In this document: piece by piece, positions 3,880-12,028 of the stretch
Layout of the letters: each line of letters begins with the position of its first letter
Numbering within the stretch: position 1 is the first letter of the stretch
Program-made: the position numbers and the translations under genes
The notes under the pieces: generated by a model
The model's input: only the letters and a program-made list of their open reading frames with translations
Databases searched by the model: none
Told to the model about the DNA's origin: nothing
Source: Elusimicrobiota bacterium
GTDB lineage: Bacteria; Elusimicrobiota; Elusimicrobia; UBA1565; UBA9628
DNA: 12,084 nucleotides
Direction of reading: 5' to 3'
Assembly: GCA_028871595.1 (NCBI GenBank)
Contig: JAGWMT010000077.1
Span: 1 to 12,084 of the forward strand

Positions 3880-5970
3880 ATGAGCGGCTCCCTGGACAGC
3901 CCGCTCCAATTCCTCAAAGGCGTGGGGCCGCGCCGTGCCGCGCTCTTCGAGCACCTGGGCGTGCGCACCGTCGAGGACCTGCTCCACCACTACCCGCGCC
4001 AGTGGCAGGACCGCCACGAGACCGCGGACCTGCGCCTGCCCACGGCCGCGGGGCTGGTGGTGCTGCGCGGGCGGGTGCTGCGCGCGTCGGGGCATTCCGC
4101 GGGGCCGCGGCTGGCGCTGTACAAGGCGACCCTGGCCACGGGGCACGGCAAGGTGGAGTGCGTGTGGTTCAAGCACCTGAGCCGGCGCTTCGACGTGTTC
4201 TCCGCGTTGAAGGCCGAGGTGACGGAAGGGGCGGACCTGTGGGTCGTCGGTCACGCGGACCCGGACCTGACCGGAATCCGCGAGATCCGGGTGGACGAGC
4301 ACTACCCGCTCACCGACGAGCGCTGGCGCACGCACGTGGCGCGTCTGACGCCGGTGTACGCCTTGACCGAAGGATTGACGCAACGCTTCGTACGGGAACT
4401 CACCCATACGGCGTTGGAGGCCCACGCGGACCAGGCGACGGATGCCGTGCCCGCGGCGCTGATGGCCAAGCGCAAGCTGCTGGCCGCGCCGCAGGCGCTG
4501 CGCGGTATTCACTTCCCCCGTTCGGACGCGGAGCTGGAGGCGGGGCGGGCGCGGCTGGCGTACGAGGAGCTTCTGCTTCTGGAAGTGGCGTGGATATTAA
4601 AACGGCGGCAGACGCGCGGGGTGTTGAAAAATTACGGGTACGAGATCAAACGGACCCTTCTCACGCCGTTCCGCGCCGCGTTGGGGTTCGAGCTGACCCA
4701 CGCGCAGAAACGGGTCATCAACGAAATTTTTGACGACATGAAGAAAGGGCATCCCATGACGCGCCTTCTTCAGGGAGATGTCGGTTCAGGCAAGACGGTG
4801 GTGGCGCTGTCGGCATTACTTCTCGCCGTCGAGAATGGAGGCCAGGGCGCGTTGATGGCTCCCACCGAGATTTTGGCGGATCAACATCGCGTCACTCTCG
4901 ATCGAATTCTCAAGGGGCTTCCGGTGAGGATCGCTTCCCTAACGTCGCGGGTTCCCAAAAAGGAGCGCGAATCGATCTTAAAAAAGATCGCCGCGGGCGA
5001 GATCGACATCGTGGTGGGCACTCACGCCGTTCTCGAAGAAGACGTGCGTTTTAAAAATCTAAAGCTGGCGGTCATCGACGAGCAGCACCGTTTCGGGGTG
5101 CGGCAGCGCACGACGTTGCGGCAGAAAGGCGCCCAGATCGACCTTCTCGTGATGACGGCCACGCCCATTCCCCGCACGTTGGCGCTGGCTCTATACGGCG
5201 ACTTGGAAGTGTCTACCATCGACGAATTGCCTCCGGGCCGCACGCCGATCAAGACGGAGCTGGCTCCGGCGGCGGCGGCGCTGGAGGCGGTGCGGCGCGA
5301 GGTGGGACAGGGGCGGCAGGCGTACGTGGTGTATCCGATCATTGAAGAATCGGCCCGTCTCGACCTGCAGTCGGCGAAGGCGGAGTACGAGCGTCTTCGC
5401 CTGGAGGCGTTTCCGGACCTGAAGGTGGCGCTGATACACGGGGCCATGCCGCCGAAGGCCAAGAACAAGATCATGGAGGAGTTCTCGCGCGGGGAGTGGC
5501 AGGTGCTGGTGGCCACGCCGGTCATCGAAGTCGGCATCGACGTGCCCAACGCCACGGTGATGGTCATCCAGAACGCCGACCGTTTCGGGCTGGCCAGCCT
5601 GCACCAACTGCGCGGGCGCATCGGGCGCGGGGCGGCGGAGTCCACGTGCTTCCTGGTGGCCGAGCCGAAAACGGCGGAGGCGGCGCACCGGCTGCAGACG
5701 ATGGCGGCCACGGCCGACGGGTTCCGGATCGGCGAGGAGGACCTCAAATTACGGGGTCCCGGGGAGCTGCTGGGCACGGCGCAGTCGGGGGAGCTCTCGC
5801 TTCAGGTGGCGGACCTGTTCAAGGACGCCGAACTGCTGGCCTACGCGCGGGCCGACGCCGACGAGCTGTTGGCCGCCGACGCGAAGCTGCTCAAGCCCGA
5901 GCACGCGCTTCTGCGGCGGCGTTTGCTGGCGCTGTATCAGAACCGCTGGAACTGGATCGATCTGGCGTAG
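3880..5970 (+). CDS. recG: ATP-dependent DNA helicase RecG
   Basis: At 696 residues this is the usual RecG length. RecG is a monomeric superfamily 2 translocase that regresses stalled replication forks and remodels branched recombination intermediates. The N-terminal wedge/OB region (about 1-220) grips the junction and starts with the typical LQFLKGVGPRRA helix-hairpin-helix-like segment. The helicase core has Walker A GDVGSGKT (299-306, Lys305), the DEQH box (400-403), TATPIPR (426-432), and motif VI with QLRGRIGRG (576-584). The TRG-type end (FRIGEEDLKLRGPGELLGT, 615-633) couples ATP use to DNA movement. The ATG at 3880 is the only sensible start, because an in-frame TAG at 3853-3855 blocks extension. 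Codon use shifts part-way: the stretch around 4560-5250 is clearly AT-richer than the flanks. Confidence 0.98.
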   Translation: MSGSLDSPLQFLKGVGPRRAALFEHLGVRTVEDLLHHYPRQWQDRHETADLRLPTAAGLVVLRGRVLRASGHSAGPRLALYKATLATGHGKVECVWFKHLSRRFDVFSALKAEVTEGADLWVVGHADPDLTGIREIRVDEHYPLTDERWRTHVARLTPVYALTEGLTQRFVRELTHTALEAHADQATDAVPAALMAKRKLLAAPQALRGIHFPRSDAELEAGRARLAYEELLLLEVAWILKRRQTRGVLKNYGYEIKRTLLTPFRAALGFELTHAQKRVINEIFDDMKKGHPMTRLLQGDVGSGKTVVALSALLLAVENGGQGALMAPTEILADQHRVTLDRILKGLPVRIASLTSRVPKKERESILKKIAAGEIDIVVGTHAVLEEDVRFKNLKLAVIDEQHRFGVRQRTTLRQKGAQIDLLVMTATPIPRTLALALYGDLEVSTIDELPPGRTPIKTELAPAAAALEAVRREVGQGRQAYVVYPIIEESARLDLQSAKAEYERLRLEAFPDLKVALIHGAMPPKAKNKIMEEFSRGEWQVLVATPVIEVGIDVPNATVMVIQNADRFGLASLHQLRGRIGRGAAESTCFLVAEPKTAEAAHRLQTMAATADGFRIGEEDLKLRGPGELLGTAQSGELSLQVADLFKDAELLAYARADADELLAADAKLLKPEHALLRRRLLALYQNRWNWIDLA

Positions 5971-6219: not shown

Positions 6220-7278
6220 GTGACCGCGCAATTCATCGACGCCCTTCGTCCCTTGTTCGACTGCCTGGTCGACGGCATCTGCGTGACCGACGACGACGGC
6301 CGGCTCCTGTACGCCAACGCCGCCGCCGGCGAGCTTCTGGGCCCCGCCGCGCGCCAAGCGGATGGCGCCCGGATCTGCGACCTGCTGTGCCGCGTCCTCG
6401 AGGGCTCCCGCGGAGAGACGTCCGACGCGTGCCCGCTCCGGACGGCGGGCGGCGAGACGGACGCCGTCGTGTTCAAGGGTCCGTACCGCCCCACCGGGAA
6501 GGAACTGCGCGTGCGCTGCCTGCGCGTGCGCCTGCCCAGCGTGGAGCGCCGGTTCCTGCTGATCGAGGACGTCTCCACTCAGGCGGAGACTGGGCGCCTC
6601 CGGGAGCAGTGGCGGGAGATGCTCGCCCACGATTTCCGCTCCCCGCTGTCCGTCATGTTCGCCACGCTGCGCTACCTCGAGGACCTGGAGCCCGGGCGCG
6701 CGCTGACCCCCGCGGACAAGGGCTTGGTCGCCGGGGCGGTCCGCAACGGCCGCCGCCTGGAGGCGCTCATCGACGACTTCCTGGAGACCGCGCGGCTGGA
6801 GAGCGGAGCGGTCAAGGCGCGGACGGAAGACGTCGACGCCGCCCGGCTGGCGCGCGAGCTGGTCGACGAGCGCCGCGGCTTCTCCCAGGGCCGCCGCCTG
6901 GAGCTGAACGTCACCGGCGCCCCCGTCGCCCGCGCCGATCCGGAACTGCTGCGGCGCGTCGTCGCGAACCTGTTCGAGAACGCCCTGAAATTCGCGCCCG
7001 CCGGGGGACGGATCACCGTGGAGGCGGCCGAGCGGGACGGGTCCGTCCTGATCTCCGTGGAGGACGACGGCCCGGGCATCGCCCCCGCCGATCTGCCGCG
7101 CCTGTTCGACCGCTTCTACCGCGGCGCCGGGGGCGGGCGCGGGTACGGGCTGGGCCTGGCCTTCTGCCGCGCCGCCGCGGCCGCCATGAACGGGGACGTC
7201 TCGATCCGCTCGGAGCCCGGCGCCGGCACCCGCTTCACGGTGCGCGTCCCGCGCGCCTCCGGGGAGGCCCCGCCATGA
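6220..7278 (+). CDS. Soluble PAS-domain sensor histidine kinase (orphan)
   Basis: The protein has 352 residues. It starts at GTG 6220 with AGGGAGG (6209-6215) just upstream; an in-frame TAA at 6148-6150 limits extension. There is no membrane segment, so it senses in the cytoplasm. Residues about 6-118 form a PAS domain (GICVTDDDGRLLYANAAAGELLG) carrying several cysteines (C53, C57, C71 of ICDLLC and DACPL), a pattern seen in PAS domains that may sense redox or metals. The dimerisation/phosphoacceptor helix has MLAHDFRSPL with His137. The ATPase domain has the N box FENALKF (Asn254), G1 DDGPGI (282-287), F box FDRFYRG (296-302) and G2 GYGLGL (308-313), so it looks active. No response regulator lies in the window, so the phosphorelay partner is elsewhere. 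The stop overlaps the next start as ATGA. Confidence 0.93.
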   Translation: MTAQFIDALRPLFDCLVDGICVTDDDGRLLYANAAAGELLGPAARQADGARICDLLCRVLEGSRGETSDACPLRTAGGETDAVVFKGPYRPTGKELRVRCLRVRLPSVERRFLLIEDVSTQAETGRLREQWREMLAHDFRSPLSVMFATLRYLEDLEPGRALTPADKGLVAGAVRNGRRLEALIDDFLETARLESGAVKARTEDVDAARLARELVDERRGFSQGRRLELNVTGAPVARADPELLRRVVANLFENALKFAPAGGRITVEAAERDGSVLISVEDDGPGIAPADLPRLFDRFYRGAGGGRGYGLGLAFCRAAAAAMNGDVSIRSEPGAGTRFTVRVPRASGEAPP

Positions 7279-7454: not shown

Positions 7455-8351
7455 ATGTCCTATAATTGGGGCGTGATCCTTCTCGCGCTCCTCGCCGGAT
7501 TTCTGGCCCTGTCCCCGCCCCATGCCGCCGCCCAGGACGACGCGGAGTTCGCCGTCGACCACCAGGACTGGCATCTGGTCGGCTGGAACGACGAGTGCGG
7601 CGCGGCCTTCACGGTGCTCTCCTACCCGAAGATCGGCGACGCCATCGCCGGCGATCCCATCTCCACCCGGGTGGGCACCATGGTCATTCCCGTGGGCCGG
7701 GAGGAGCCCAACCTGACCTGGACCTTGGAGGCCGACGGGCCGCTCAGCTTCAGCCAGAAGGACCTGGACAAGGCCGAGAAGGATCTGCGCGCCGGCGGCT
7801 TCAGCCGCGCCGGCTTTCCGGAGATCATCCAGGACGCCCCCGTCGCCGACCAGCCCCTGCTGGCGGACGCCATTCTCTCGACGGCCACCCTCCACCCGCG
7901 CGTGAACAAGGGCTGGCCCGCCGCCAAGGATTGGCGCTGGGCCGCGGCCGAGTACAATCCCCTGGGCACCTGCGCCCTGCTGGTCTACGAGAACCGCGAG
8001 CAGCGCAAGCACTACAGCTTCATCCTGCTGCGCGTGTACAATCCCGGCGCGCGCCGGCAGCGCGCCTACGCCCACGCGTCCAACGCGCGCCTGCAGTTCA
8101 ACACCGGGAACCTGGACATCGGCGCCGCCGAGGCCGCGACCGCCGCCCGCCTGGATCCGGGCCTGCCCATCGCGCGCTACGAGCACGCCGCCATGCTGGC
8201 GCTCACCGGCCGCACCGACCAGGCCGTGGACGAACTCAAGGCCGCCGTGAAGCTGGACGAGAAGTACCGCGAAAAGGCCCGCGACGACGAGGACTTCTCC
8301 GACCTGCGCCGTCGCGACGACTTCCGCGCCCTCACCCGCCGCCGTCCTTGA
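7455..8351 (+). CDS. Exported protein with C-terminal TPR repeats, unknown function
   Basis: The protein has 298 residues. The ATG follows AGGAG (7447-7451) by 3 nt and lies 6 nt after the previous stop, so this is the third gene of the kinase operon. Residues 1-27 are a signal peptide (WGVILLALLAGFLALSPPHAAAQ). Residues about 28-195 form a domain I do not recognise, with strand-rich segments such as WHLVGWNDECGAAFTVLSY and TRVGTMVIPVG, and two cysteines (in DECG and GTCALL) that could form a disulfide. Residues about 200-270 hold TPR units (NTGNLDIGAAEAATAARLDP, then TGRTDQAVDELKAAVKLDEK). The end, EDFSDLRRRDDFRAL, is the usual closing motif of TPR proteins. It probably acts in the periplasm or at the cell surface, and it may carry an output or input linked to the kinase. 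An alternative GTG start at 7473 is less likely. Confidence 0.8.
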   Translation: MSYNWGVILLALLAGFLALSPPHAAAQDDAEFAVDHQDWHLVGWNDECGAAFTVLSYPKIGDAIAGDPISTRVGTMVIPVGREEPNLTWTLEADGPLSFSQKDLDKAEKDLRAGGFSRAGFPEIIQDAPVADQPLLADAILSTATLHPRVNKGWPAAKDWRWAAAEYNPLGTCALLVYENREQRKHYSFILLRVYNPGARRQRAYAHASNARLQFNTGNLDIGAAEAATAARLDPGLPIARYEHAAMLALTGRTDQAVDELKAAVKLDEKYREKARDDEDFSDLRRRDDFRALTRRRP

Positions 8352-8376
8352 AAACCCCCTCTCAAGGGGCTATAAT
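8348..8376 (+). promoter_or_regulatory. Strong sigma-70 promoter of metH
   Basis: TTGAAA (8348-8353), an optimal 17-nt spacer and a perfect TATAAT (8371-8376) give a near-consensus promoter. The start of transcription should fall at about 8382-8384, exactly at the 5' edge of the structured leader. The -35 box contains the TGA stop of the upstream TPR gene (8349-8351). The spacer contains an inverted repeat (CCCCT 8356-8360 / AGGGG 8365-8369), which might bind a regulator or end the upstream transcript. Confidence 0.8.
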
Positions 8377-8381
8377 GACTT

Positions 8382-8440
8382 GTCGCAGGCGAGGATTTCC
8401 AGCCGAATTGCCCCGGCCGACCGGGAGCTAAAGAGGCGAC
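8382..8440 (+). promoter_or_regulatory. SAM-II-like riboswitch aptamer in the metH leader
   Basis: The leader carries, in the right order, the conserved blocks of SAM-II (SAM-alpha) riboswitches: GATTT (8394-8398), CCGAATTGC (8403-8411) and AGCTAAAGAGG (8426-8436). In the known SAM-II structure the U-rich loop packs in the groove of helix P2, made by CCG..UUGC pairing with GCUAAA.AGG, and SAM binds there. Here CC/GG and GC/GC can pair in the same way. The gap between GATTT and CCG is 2 nt longer than in the SAM-II crystal sequence I recall. P1 is not clean: a bulged helix of 8382-8393 with 8412-8421 is possible, but it competes with a perfect hairpin (CCCGG 8412-8416 / CCGGG 8421-8425) and with an outer stem GTCGC (8382-8386) / GCGAC (8436-8440). 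The position fits: promoter at its edge, terminator after it, a methionine synthase gene downstream. No family search was possible. Confidence 0.62.
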
Positions 8441-8452
8441 GCTGAACTGGAG

Positions 8453-8477
8453 ACCGCGCCCGCCGGCGCGGTTTTTT
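8453..8477 (+). terminator. Intrinsic terminator in the metH leader (attenuator)
   Basis: ACCGCGCC (8453-8460) and GGCGCGGT (8465-8472) form a perfect 8-bp, mostly GC stem with a 4-nt loop, followed by six Ts (8472-8477). It ends 14 nt before the metH ATG and about 95 nt after the predicted transcription start, so without control it would stop most transcripts before metH. That placement is typical of riboswitch expression platforms. GGCG at 8435-8438 can pair with CGCC at 8457-8460 or 8461-8464 but only weakly, so the antiterminator remains unclear. Confidence 0.85.
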
Positions 8478-8491
8478 CATTTCAGGAGCCC

Positions 8492-11400
8492 ATGAGCCAC
8501 GGAAAACGGTCGTTCGCCGATCGGGGACGCGAGGACGAGCTGCGCGAGCTGCTGCACCGCCGCGTGCTGGTGCTCGACGGCGGCATGGGCACCATGCTCC
8601 AGGCCCAAAACCTGACCGCGGCCGACTTCGGCGGCCCCGAGCTGGAGGGCTGCAACGAGAACCTGATCCTCACGCGGCCGGACGCCATCCAATCGGTCCA
8701 CGAGGCCTACTTCGCCGTCGGGGCCGACATGATTGAGACCGGCACCTTCGGCGCCATCAAGCATGTGCTCGCCGAGTACGGATTAGAAGCCAAGGCGCGG
8801 GAGATCTGCCGTCGCGGCACCGAATTAGGCCGTGCCGCCGCGAAAAAATACGCCACCGCTGATCGCCCATTGTTCGTCGCGGGCTCATTGGGGCCCGGCA
8901 CGAAGGCCATCACCGTCACCGGCGGCATTACTTATGACGAGGTGTTGGTCAATTATGCCGAGGCGACCGCCGGTCTGCTTGAGGGCGGGGCCGACCTGAT
9001 CCTGTTGGAGACCCAACAAGACACGATCAACGTGAAGGCCTCGATGAACGGGATTCAGGAGGCCTTCCAGAAGGCCGGACGCTCCGTGCCCGTCATCTTG
9101 TCGGTCTCCATCGAATCCATGGGCACGATGCTGGGCGGGCAGGACATCTCCGCTTTGGCCGACGCGGTGGCCCACTTCGACCTTTTGGCTTTGGGAATGA
9201 ACTGCGCGACCGGTCCGGATTTCATGACCGACCATCTCCGCACCTTGTCCTCGCTGACGCGCGCGTTCACCATCGTTTACCCGAACGCGGGACTGCCCGA
9301 CGAGAACGGAAACTACAACGAATCCCCCGAGATGCTGGCGAAGAAGATCGCGCGTTTCGCCGACGAAGGCTGGGTCAATTTAGTGGGCGGCTGCTGCGGA
9401 ACGACGCCCAATCATATTAAACAGATCGCCCAAACCGTGATGGGCAAGCCGCCGCGGCGGCCGCACAAGCAGCGCCGCGCGTCGGTGTCGGGCATGGAGT
9501 CTTTGTCCCTGGACGAGGACCGGCGGCCGCTGATCGTGGGCGAGCGCACGAACGTGATCGGCTCGCGCAAGTTCAAGGAGCTGATCGTGGGCGGGGAGCT
9601 GGAGGCCGCGGCCGAGTTGGCGCGCCACCAGGTCCGCGCGGGCGCGCACATCATCGACGTGTGCCTGGCCAACCCGGACCGCGACGAGAAGGAGGACCTG
9701 GTGGCCTTCTTCGAGAAGGCGGTGCGCAAGGTCAAGGTCCCGTTCATGATCGACTCCACCGACGCGGCGGTCATGGAGGAAGCGCTCAAGCGCGCCCCGG
9801 GCAAGTGCGTGCTGAACTCCGTCAATTTGGAGGACGGCGAGGAGCGCTTCGAGGCCGTCATCCCCTTGGTCCACACGTACGGCGCGGCCTTGGTGGTGGG
9901 CACCATCGACGAGGACAAGATCATGGGCATGGGCCTGACGCGCGCCCGCAAACTCGCCATCGCCGAGCGGTCCTTCAATCTATTGGCGACGAAGTACGGG
10001 ATCGCGCCCGAGGACATCATTTTCGATCCGTTGGTCTTTCCGGCCGGAACGGGAGACAAGAATTATTGGGGGTCCGCGGTCGAGACGATCGAAGGGATAC
10101 GTTTGATCAAGGCCGCCATGCCCCGCTGCCGCACGATCCTGGGCATATCCAACGTGTCGTTCGGTCTTCCTCCCGCGGGACGAGAAATCCTCAACTCAGT
10201 GTTTTTACATCACTGCGTCGAGGCCGGATTGGATATGGCCATCGTGAACGCCGAGAAATTGGCGCGATATTCGCAGATACCCGACGTCGAGAAGAAACTG
10301 GCCTGGGACCTTCTCTCTTGGAAGGGCCCCGGAGATCCGGCGCATCCCAAGGAGTTCGACGCCGTGTCGGTCTTCTCCGAGCACTTCCGGGCGGTCAAAA
10401 CGGTGGAGAAATCCCCGTCGGAACGTTTGAAATTACCCATCAACGAACGCGTCGCCAAAAACGTCGTCGAGGGTTCCCAAGAAGGTCTCCGCGTTGATCT
10501 CGACGAACTGCTCAAGACGTTGAAACCGTTGGAGGTCATCAACGGACCTCTCATGGCGGGCATGGACGAGGTCGGACGACTGTTCGGCGCCAACACGATG
10601 ATCGTGGCCGAAGTGCTCCAATCGGCCGAGGTCATGAAAGCGGCGGTCGCGCATCTCGAACCGCACATGACCGTCGCGGACTCCGCCACGCGCGCCACGA
10701 TTCTTTTGGCGACCGTCAAAGGCGATGTGCACGACATCGGCAAAAATCTCGTCCACATCATCCTCAAGAACAATGGTTATAAAGTCGTGGATCTCGGCAT
10801 CAAGATCGCGCCCGAGCAGCTCTTGGCCGCCGTGAAGGAGCACAAGCCGGACGCGATCGGCCTGTCGGGGTTGCTGGTCAAGTCGGCCCAAATGATGGTC
10901 ATCACCGCCGAGGACCTCACCGCCGCCGGCATCCGCCTGCCCGTGCTGGTGGGCGGCGCCGCGCTGTCTCCGCGCTTCACGGCCAAGCGCATCGCCCGGG
11001 CCTACGACGGGCCGGTGTTCTACGCGAAGGACGCGATGACCGGGCTGTCTTTGGCCAACGACTATTTCGGCGAGAAGCGCGAGGTCCTGCTGAACAAGAA
11101 CCGGGAGATCCAGGAATACCTGCGCACGGAGTCGCCCACGGCGGCGGTCACCGACGCGGCCGCGGTGGCCGAGACGCCGCGCTTCACGGTGACGCACGCC
11201 GAACCGCCCCCGGCGCCGCCGGACCTGAAGCTGCACGTCGTGTCCGACTTCGACGTGGAGGAGATATTCAAGTACGTGAACCCCATCATGCTGTACGGAA
11301 AACATTTGGGGCTCCGGGGAAATTTGGAGCAGCTTCTTCGCGATAAGAACCCCAAAGCGGTGGAGCTCACGAAGCGCGTCCAGGCTCTCCAGGACGAAAT

Positions 11401-12028
11401 TCTCGAAAAGAAGATGATCACCGCCAAGGCCGTGTATAAATTCTTCGCCGCGAACAGCGACGGCGACAAAATCCATCTGTACGACTCGCCGAAGGCGGCC
11501 GTTCCGCTGGCCAGTTTCGACTTCCCGCGCCAGCCCTCGGGCGAGCGCCTGTGCCTGGCCGATTTCGTCCGCCCCGCCTCCGACGGCCGCGATTACGTGG
11601 GGATGTTCGTGGTCACCTGCGGGGCCGGCATCCGGGCTTTGTCCGACACGTACCGGGACTCCGGGGAATACCTGCGCTCCCACGCGCTTCAGGCCGTCGC
11701 CGTCGAGTCGGCCGAGGGCTTCGCGGAGCTGCTGCATGACCGCCTGCGCAAGATGTGGGGCATCGGCGACCCCGCCGGGCTGCCGGTGCGCGAGAAGTTC
11801 CAGGGGCACTACCGCGGCAAGCGCTTCAGCTTCGGCTACCCGGCCTGCCCGAACCTGGAGGACCAGACCAAGCTGTTCGCTTTGCTCCAGCCCGAGAAGC
11901 ACGTGGGCGTGGAGCTGACCGAGGGCTTCATGATGGAACCGGAGGCCAGCGTGTCGGCCTTGGTCTTCCATCATCCGCAGACGCGCTACTTCTCCGTGGG
12001 AGAAGCCGCGATCGCCGCGGCGGAGTGA
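8492..12028 (+). CDS. metH: Cobalamin-dependent methionine synthase MetH
   Basis: The protein has 1178 residues with the full four-module layout. It moves a methyl group from 5-methyltetrahydrofolate through methylcobalamin to homocysteine, making methionine in the cytoplasm. The homocysteine module (about 24-320) has LDGGMGTML and the zinc ligands Cys238 (GMNCATG), Cys301 and Cys302 (GGCCGTTPNH). The folate module (about 345-610) has VGERTNVIGSRKF and DPLVFPAGTGDKNYWG. The cap plus B12 module (about 645-880) has GDVHDIGKN with His747 as the lower cobalt ligand, LSGLLVKS (791-798) and VGGAALS. The reactivation module (about 915-1175) has YVNPIMLYGKHLGLRG and the SAM-binding RFSFGYPACPNLED (1111-1124). 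All key residues are present. The start has AGGAG (8484-8488) 3 nt upstream. Expression seems set by the strong promoter, leader aptamer and terminator upstream. Codon use alternates between GC-rich and AT-leaning blocks. Confidence 0.98.
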   Translation: MSHGKRSFADRGREDELRELLHRRVLVLDGGMGTMLQAQNLTAADFGGPELEGCNENLILTRPDAIQSVHEAYFAVGADMIETGTFGAIKHVLAEYGLEAKAREICRRGTELGRAAAKKYATADRPLFVAGSLGPGTKAITVTGGITYDEVLVNYAEATAGLLEGGADLILLETQQDTINVKASMNGIQEAFQKAGRSVPVILSVSIESMGTMLGGQDISALADAVAHFDLLALGMNCATGPDFMTDHLRTLSSLTRAFTIVYPNAGLPDENGNYNESPEMLAKKIARFADEGWVNLVGGCCGTTPNHIKQIAQTVMGKPPRRPHKQRRASVSGMESLSLDEDRRPLIVGERTNVIGSRKFKELIVGGELEAAAELARHQVRAGAHIIDVCLANPDRDEKEDLVAFFEKAVRKVKVPFMIDSTDAAVMEEALKRAPGKCVLNSVNLEDGEERFEAVIPLVHTYGAALVVGTIDEDKIMGMGLTRARKLAIAERSFNLLATKYGIAPEDIIFDPLVFPAGTGDKNYWGSAVETIEGIRLIKAAMPRCRTILGISNVSFGLPPAGREILNSVFLHHCVEAGLDMAIVNAEKLARYSQIPDVEKKLAWDLLSWKGPGDPAHPKEFDAVSVFSEHFRAVKTVEKSPSERLKLPINERVAKNVVEGSQEGLRVDLDELLKTLKPLEVINGPLMAGMDEVGRLFGANTMIVAEVLQSAEVMKAAVAHLEPHMTVADSATRATILLATVKGDVHDIGKNLVHIILKNNGYKVVDLGIKIAPEQLLAAVKEHKPDAIGLSGLLVKSAQMMVITAEDLTAAGIRLPVLVGGAALSPRFTAKRIARAYDGPVFYAKDAMTGLSLANDYFGEKREVLLNKNREIQEYLRTESPTAAVTDAAAVAETPRFTVTHAEPPPAPPDLKLHVVSDFDVEEIFKYVNPIMLYGKHLGLRGNLEQLLRDKNPKAVELTKRVQALQDEILEKKMITAKAVYKFFAANSDGDKIHLYDSPKAAVPLASFDFPRQPSGERLCLADFVRPASDGRDYVGMFVVTCGAGIRALSDTYRDSGEYLRSHALQAVAVESAEGFAELLHDRLRKMWGIGDPAGLPVREKFQGHYRGKRFSFGYPACPNLEDQTKLFALLQPEKHVGVELTEGFMMEPEASVSALVFHHPQTRYFSVGEAAIAAAE

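Follow-up and report, generated by a model that had tools for sequence, protein, structure and literature searches.

What controls metH in this Elusimicrobiota genome, and does its leader hold a SAM riboswitch of a known class? Within the 12,084-nucleotide stretch of DNA analysed here (the window), three blocks of SAM-II type follow one another ahead of metH: GATTT at 8394-8398, CCGAATTGC at 8403-8411 and GCTAAAGAGG at 8427-8436. A sequence-only reading had taken them for the ligand site of a SAM-II-like riboswitch between a strong promoter and a terminator; the blocks were then found in the window letters in the order it gave, and with their gaps they match a single place in the window and none in 200 shuffles. 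Our analysis makes it probable that the leader is a riboswitch which senses SAM, acts by terminating transcription and belongs to the SAM-II/SAM-V superfamily, its helices being arranged in a new way; we infer its ligand, its OFF direction and an antiterminator. The features concerned are as follows.

8348..8376, plus strand: sigma70-like promoter with -35 TTGAAA, 17-nt spacer and -10 TATAAT, scoring 11/12
8388..8390, plus strand: 5′ strand GGC of P1, a short pseudoknot helix, covarying with the loop GCC
8391..8398, plus strand: third strand GAGGAUUU, its UUU the counterpart of U8-U9-U10 of SAM-V as given in PMC6061858
8403..8411, plus strand: 5′ strand CCGAAUUGC of P2, the last pair C-G being swapped to G-C in 8/51 elements
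8412..8425, plus strand: added helix named P3 (CCCGG/CCGGG), which extends P2 and is absent from SAM-II
8416..8418, plus strand: 3′ strand GCC of P1 at the apex of P3, with one base in common with the final pair of P3
8427..8436, plus strand: 3′ strand GCUAAAGAGG of P2, with U8429, A8430, A8431 and A8432 equivalent to U47, A48, A49 and A50 of SAM-V
8449..8477, plus strand: intrinsic terminator with T-run (stem 8449-8460/8465-8476, loop 8461-8464)
8454..8460, plus strand: CCGCGCC, part of the terminator 5′ arm and putative antiterminator partner of GGCGAGG at 8388-8394
8492..12028, plus strand: metH, cobalamin-dependent methionine synthase (ATG at 8492; TIGR02082, 1193 bits, cut-off 1011)

The surroundings are those that the sequence-only reading had described: a strong promoter just upstream (comparable sites in shuffles averaged 0.0 over 50 shuffles), a GC-rich hairpin with six Ts behind the core, and metH as the next gene. 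The six-T run (8472-8477) overlaps the weak foot of the terminator stem, and a generic terminator scan of the window returned 0 sites, this hairpin included. With a minimum free energy of -44.6 kcal/mol (z -2.30), the leader is equalled in stability by 3/200 shuffles. An outer helix of that fold, GUCGC 8382-8386 with GCGAC 8436-8440, was rejected, its partner strands mismatching by eye in most relatives. Farther upstream on the same strand lie ordinary genes, encoding a RecG helicase (3880-5970) and a sensor histidine kinase (6220-7278).

To find relatives, one genome per species (84,980 species) was searched for the pattern, allowing a short gap ahead of GCTAAA, and 65 stretches came back. 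Seven of these (L010, L013, L017, L023, L026, L037 and L042) share with the window the layout GGCGAG-GATTT-n-CCGAATTGC-local hairpin-GCTAAARAGG-terminator. All seven precede metH; five come from Elusimicrobia records and two from records labelled bacterium only. The window MetH shares 78% identity with the L042 protein and 81% with the L023 protein, and up to 84% over 487 residues with proteins from genomes of the same phylum, which places the window in or near it. The remaining 58 stretches were sorted by eye only, as coding-like or as having a canonical P1 as in SAM-II. Recurrent matches in several phyla (L002, L008, L009, L030 and others) resemble one conserved coding stretch, a trap for motif searches; this stretch, reading DFGRIAAQTAKQ, we take to be NusA. 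Four SAM-II-like elements outside alpha-proteobacteria, in Marinimicrobia, Spirochaetia and Ignavibacteriae records (L031, L065, L038 and L006), have an apparently canonical P1 by eye.

A covariance model built from nine same-layout sequences (R1) was run on 340 genomes from the phylum to which G001, the Elusimicrobia genome carrying L010, belongs. It matched 175/340 genomes at E≤1, the weaker matches being mostly left unread. A second model (R2), built from 43 matches and so giving E-values that depend on its training set, reached 48/340 genomes at E≤0.02 and yielded 46 matches at E≤1e-5; most of the elements it found had first been recovered by R1, trained on nine. Curation left 52 elements in 45/340 genomes, or 53 with the window. 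Eight matches were dropped by eye as chance or coding-like (L123, L126, L127, L128, L129, L131, L133 and L157), as was L175 from another phylum (E 0.006), which lacks the core; weak R2 matches in G045 (E 0.0066) and G289 (E 0.0132) and an ambiguous second copy behind L148a were left out. L116 duplicates L108, and longer versions replaced shorter ones of the same element. Weak members were kept: L158 (R1 E 0.014, not in the R2 list) and L147, L148a and L143b (R2 E 0.003 to 0.011). L113 and L143b, which misfit the core pattern, count among the 53 and are excluded from the pair statistics, which cover 51.

Beyond this phylum, R2 (with stricter filters in searches across more than 40 genomes) matched 0/6 genomes of other phyla, 0/128 genomes in the L025 phylum and 1/125 in the L033 phylum, the latter at E 0.006 and put down to chance. 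In the phylum of L019 it matched 1/129 genomes at E 6.9e-10, and the class of that genome holds the element in 3/93 genomes, that one included (L176, L177 and L178). L019 is a Pyrinomonadaceae record, a family that we assume to belong to Acidobacteriota. A scan of viral contigs with a stricter pattern found none. The range outside proteobacteria that had been suggested for the window is borne out by its relatives in the Elusimicrobia phylum, and the blocks are strongly conserved in related metH leaders.

Such conservation bears on the thought that the blocks are a chance likeness ahead of a constitutive leader with a terminator. The blocks were, after all, first matched without a database search, and the strict pattern also matches coding-like sequence elsewhere; set against 46 matches in the phylum that reach E≤1e-5, most of which precede methionine genes, this explanation is scarcely credible.

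Membership in SAM-II itself is another matter. The window as a whole had no Rfam match at gathering score, and 8340-8510 searched at E up to 10 yielded six weak hits, each to an unrelated family and far below its gathering score, and no SAM family. Eighteen loci likewise gave no SAM family at gathering score, and L176 and L117 gave only unrelated weak matches up to E 10, the best for L176 being a ribosomal leader (E 2e-4, below gathering score). The models for SAM-V, SAM-II long loops and SAM/SAH were presumably present in the library searched. RF00521 (cut-off 36 bits) exceeded its cut-off in 0/149 phylum genomes, and in none of 14 control genomes either, so that this search has no positive control; weak matches occurred in 50/149 genomes, the best at 24 bits, and none in the carrier G001. 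Of the earlier claim of a SAM-II-like riboswitch, the ligand core stands and the assignment to SAM-II does not, since no Rfam SAM family matches and the strand that should form P1 folds as a local hairpin.

An ordinary SAM-II or SAM-V riboswitch, too diverged for the Rfam model, would share the identical core letters, and homology searches often miss strongly diverged members of known RNA classes, as noted in PMC2864571. We nevertheless regard this as improbable, given the searches above and because a strand that follows AUUGC, forms a local hairpin and has its loop paired by the 5′ GGC is more than divergence.

The preferred reading, a rearranged member of the superfamily, starts from this hairpin. 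Beyond AUUGC, the RNA pairs with the strand that precedes GCUAA, giving a local helix that extends P2; its loop carries GCC, and the 5′ end of the element carries GGC. A canonical SAM-II P1, for which the eight sequences sharing this layout offer no more than 3 pairs, was rejected, the local hairpin forming instead. Across the 51 elements, with loop triplets assigned by eye from the listing, the 5′ and loop triplets read GGC/GCC in 41, GGU/ACC in three (L119b, L121 and L147), GGU/GCC in two (L141 and L150), AGC/GCU in L112, AGC/GUU in L154 and GGC/GCU in L106, and are broken in L105 and L109, so that P1 is fully paired in 49/51. For 49 distinct elements, 145/147 cells pair, a level reached by 0/20000 shuffles (mean 139.6), which ignore relatedness; Fisher's test gives P 5e-4 at each of two positions. 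A fixed-window check runs in the same direction and is weaker: GGT finds its partner in 3/5 of its own elements vs 6/46 others, AGC in 1/3 vs 5/48, and GGC in 40/43 of its own. Two tandem copies in one metY leader, L119a and L119b, carry GGC/GCC and GGU/ACC, respectively, and GGU/ACC is seen before metH, metY and a gene with no assigned link, both of which count against simple inheritance. P1 covaries, and these compensatory changes support a three-pair helix between the 5′ GGC and the loop GCC.

The closing pair of P2 covaries as well, being C-G in 42 elements, G-C in eight and A.A in one. P3 pairs with little variation: C-G makes up its first, second and third pair in 49, 48 and 46 elements, respectively, L089 and L151 each carry a lone G-C swap, and covariation is slight. 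By script, it has 5 or 6 pairs in 16 elements, 4 in seven, 3 in 24 and fewer in four, that is, one to three pairs only in 28/51. In the window, one base belongs both to the last pair of P3 and to the GCC pairing, so that P3 would have four pairs once P1 forms. Long inserts, apparently hairpins, occupy the added-helix loop of L107, L119 and L145.

That shared base pair, for which P3 and the GCC pairing compete in the window, also suits a full permutation, in which the hairpin replaces P1, no GGC/GCC pseudoknot forms and GGCGAGG is kept as antiterminator only; single-structure folding works without a pseudoknot, and GGCGAGG is able to pair with the terminator arm. It is harder to square with a loop GCC kept although its flanks and spacing vary, with GGC and GCC changing together, and with L108, a metY leader in which a lenient script found no terminator and which still keeps both triplets. 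We hold the permutation to be unlikely and retain the pseudoknotted arrangement.

How well does the core of this arrangement fit SAM? In SAM-V, as PMC6061858 describes it, the adenine of SAM is held by U47 and U8; among the triples, U20:A48.U9 faces the sulfonium, with U19:A49.U10 as another; and the amino-acid end is held by A50, which pairs with A18. Each of the contacts U8, U9, U10, U20, U47, A48, A49 and A50 has a counterpart in the window, where the equivalent nucleotides are UUU 8396-8398, A8407, U8408, U8409, U8429, A8430, A8431 and A8432. The window has the strict core UUU ... AUUGC ... GCUAAA, and 51/53 elements match the looser UUU ... UUGN ... NCUAA; UUU, UUG and CUAA occur in 51/51 parsed elements by construction, as they are part of the parsing pattern. 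The positions equivalent to SAM-V 18/50 are A/A in 29 elements, C/A in 19 and U/G in three (L106, L109 and L112), although A50 reads the SAM amino-acid end in SAM-V. The superfamily is recognised by a pseudoknot and a P2 triplex with SAM contacts; at the level of sequence, nucleotides and covariation are compatible with such a fold.

The genes behind the elements point the same way: metH follows 31 of the 53, metY nine (7 loci), and metX, metK, cysT and dsrE2 one each, making 44/53; one more precedes an aminotransferase (an aminotransferase model ranks first among its matches and methionine aminotransferase third), and eight precede genes with no assigned methionine link. Except for the window metH, genes were named by similarity or from N-terminal pieces, for which reason they do not reach curated cut-offs. 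Tandem pairs occur in two metY leaders, L155 (636-728 and 787-877) and L143 (632-706 and 798-910). metH-like proteins are found in 182/340 phylum genomes at E≤1e-100 (73 above cut-off), whereas the 30 metH-linked elements fall in 29 genomes; many metH genes therefore lack the element.

A subtype with UUGG/CCUAA in place of UUGC/GCUAA (L142, L147, L148, L149, L151, L152, L153 and L158) stands before genes without an assigned link in 6/8 cases, the other two being metK and the aminotransferase; this mostly unlinked subfamily may bind another ligand. Farther downstream, L142 and L147 are followed by AAA-ATPase-like proteins that resemble each other. Behind each of L176, L177 and L178 lies a homologous conserved protein of ~95 residues, at 1131-1418 on the minus strand for L176.

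Could the core as a whole bind SAH, methionine or some relative of SAM instead, or could the leader bind a protein? Spermidine-binding variants of SAM aptamers, reported in PMC10853860, set a precedent, and the eight unlinked elements, six of them of the UUGG/CCUAA kind, leave some room. The nucleotides that read adenine and sulfonium in SAM-V are unchanged in the window, however, and 44/53 genes are methionine or sulfur genes, which makes SAM the preferred ligand and a substitute for it doubtful.

With respect to the switching step, 43/50 elements with enough upstream sequence have a -10-like hexamer (at least 4/6 matches) no more than 30 nt ahead of P1, and in 28/29 measurable metH elements such a hexamer ends 8 to 15 nt before GGC, both counts being without shuffle control. 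This spacing leads us to expect the RNA to start near P1. For SAM-II, too, a start just before P1 is reported in PMC1273637. The lenient script found terminator-like hairpins behind 48/53 elements; taken with the start near P1, these are why we propose an OFF switch by termination. In L108, which has no such hairpin, a Shine-Dalgarno-like sequence inside the P2 3′ strand, just before the ATG, would fit translational control.

An antiterminator can be proposed from the 5′ GGCGAGG, which, one mismatch aside, is the complement of CCRCGCC, the terminator-arm sequence that many metH leaders carry. Folding of a window transcript ending at the arm gives GGC-arm pairing a probability of 0.99, and 20/45 leaders folded as transcripts cut at the arm exceed P>0.5. 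GGCGAGG pairs at -10.65 with 45 terminator arms vs -9.18 with 45 control terminators (P=0.012); against 21 GC-matched control terminators the difference is not significant (P=0.11). Ranked among the 45 arms, an element's own arm comes 1st for L112 and L149, 6th for L105, 10th for L150 and L154, 13th for L141 and 34th for L119b; with the L149 arm, the consensus element pairs even better than L149's own. The suggestive case is L112, in which AGC, the loop GCU and the terminator CGCUG change together and the element prefers its own arm over the other 44, the arm pairing at 0.34 in the fold of the transcript cut there. Terminators of L176, L177 and L178 hold UUGGAG, complementary to the P2 sequence CUCCAA. 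In L176 the complement spans ten bases (1/300 shuffles), which is not strong alone because it is the best of 56 leaders tested; in L177 and L178 it is not unusual alone by shuffle comparison, nor is the longest aptamer-downstream complement in most of the 56 leaders. Since arm pairing varies by leader and barely exceeds controls, we can only infer the antiterminator, which may differ between clades.

Under the proposed mechanism, the transcript would begin just before GGC. SAM would stabilise P1 and P2 and so occupy the 5′ strand, letting the terminator form and turning metH off. When SAM is lacking, GGCGAGG would be free to pair with the terminator, a role that a P2 strand would take in other clades, and transcription would read through into metH. 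If this is true, one SAM-binding triplex core is carried by different helix arrangements, the superfamily extends to a poorly studied phylum, whose methionine and sulfur genes gain a named regulator, and structural biologists gain a compact test that separates the SAM-II parts required for binding from those that serve switching alone.

Compared with known SAM riboswitches, the helices seem arranged unlike those of any described one, and a search of open-licence literature turned up no riboswitch of this kind. With SAM-II (RF00521, the metA element), the family shares the UUU third strand, the UUGC/GCUAA core, the CC/GG outer P2, a pseudoknot, a transcription start just before P1, a terminator behind and methionine genes. 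In SAM-II, however, P1 joins the 5′ end to the strand directly after AUUGC and adjoins P2, whereas in the window that strand is a local hairpin, an extra helix lies between the two, and P1 consists of three pairs at the apex; SAM-II also has a loop before the P2 3′ strand where this family has a short loop or insert. SAM-II long loops (RF01726), Bacteroidetes and marine in a table of PMC2864571, are likewise a described SAM-II variant outside alpha-proteobacteria; Rfam searches up to E 10 did not return them for the window, L176 or L117. SAM-V shares the ligand contacts and triple positions, as given in PMC6061858, but its four-pair P1 continues directly from P2 with a P3 hairpin 3′ of P1, while the added helix of the window crosses P1 and extends P2; its control is translational, as opposed to the termination proposed here. 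SAM-V was itself set apart from SAM-II on differences in helix length and loops, according to PMC2704228, and because these are comparable to the present ones we treat the element as a new variant of the SAM-II/SAM-V superfamily. It is probably a third architecture for the SAM-II/SAM-V site, with the same triplex pocket and a pseudoknot whose first stem sits at the far end of a lengthened second one, serving as the methionine switch of many Elusimicrobiota, occurring also in a class on the Acidobacteriota side, and placed in tandem before metY.
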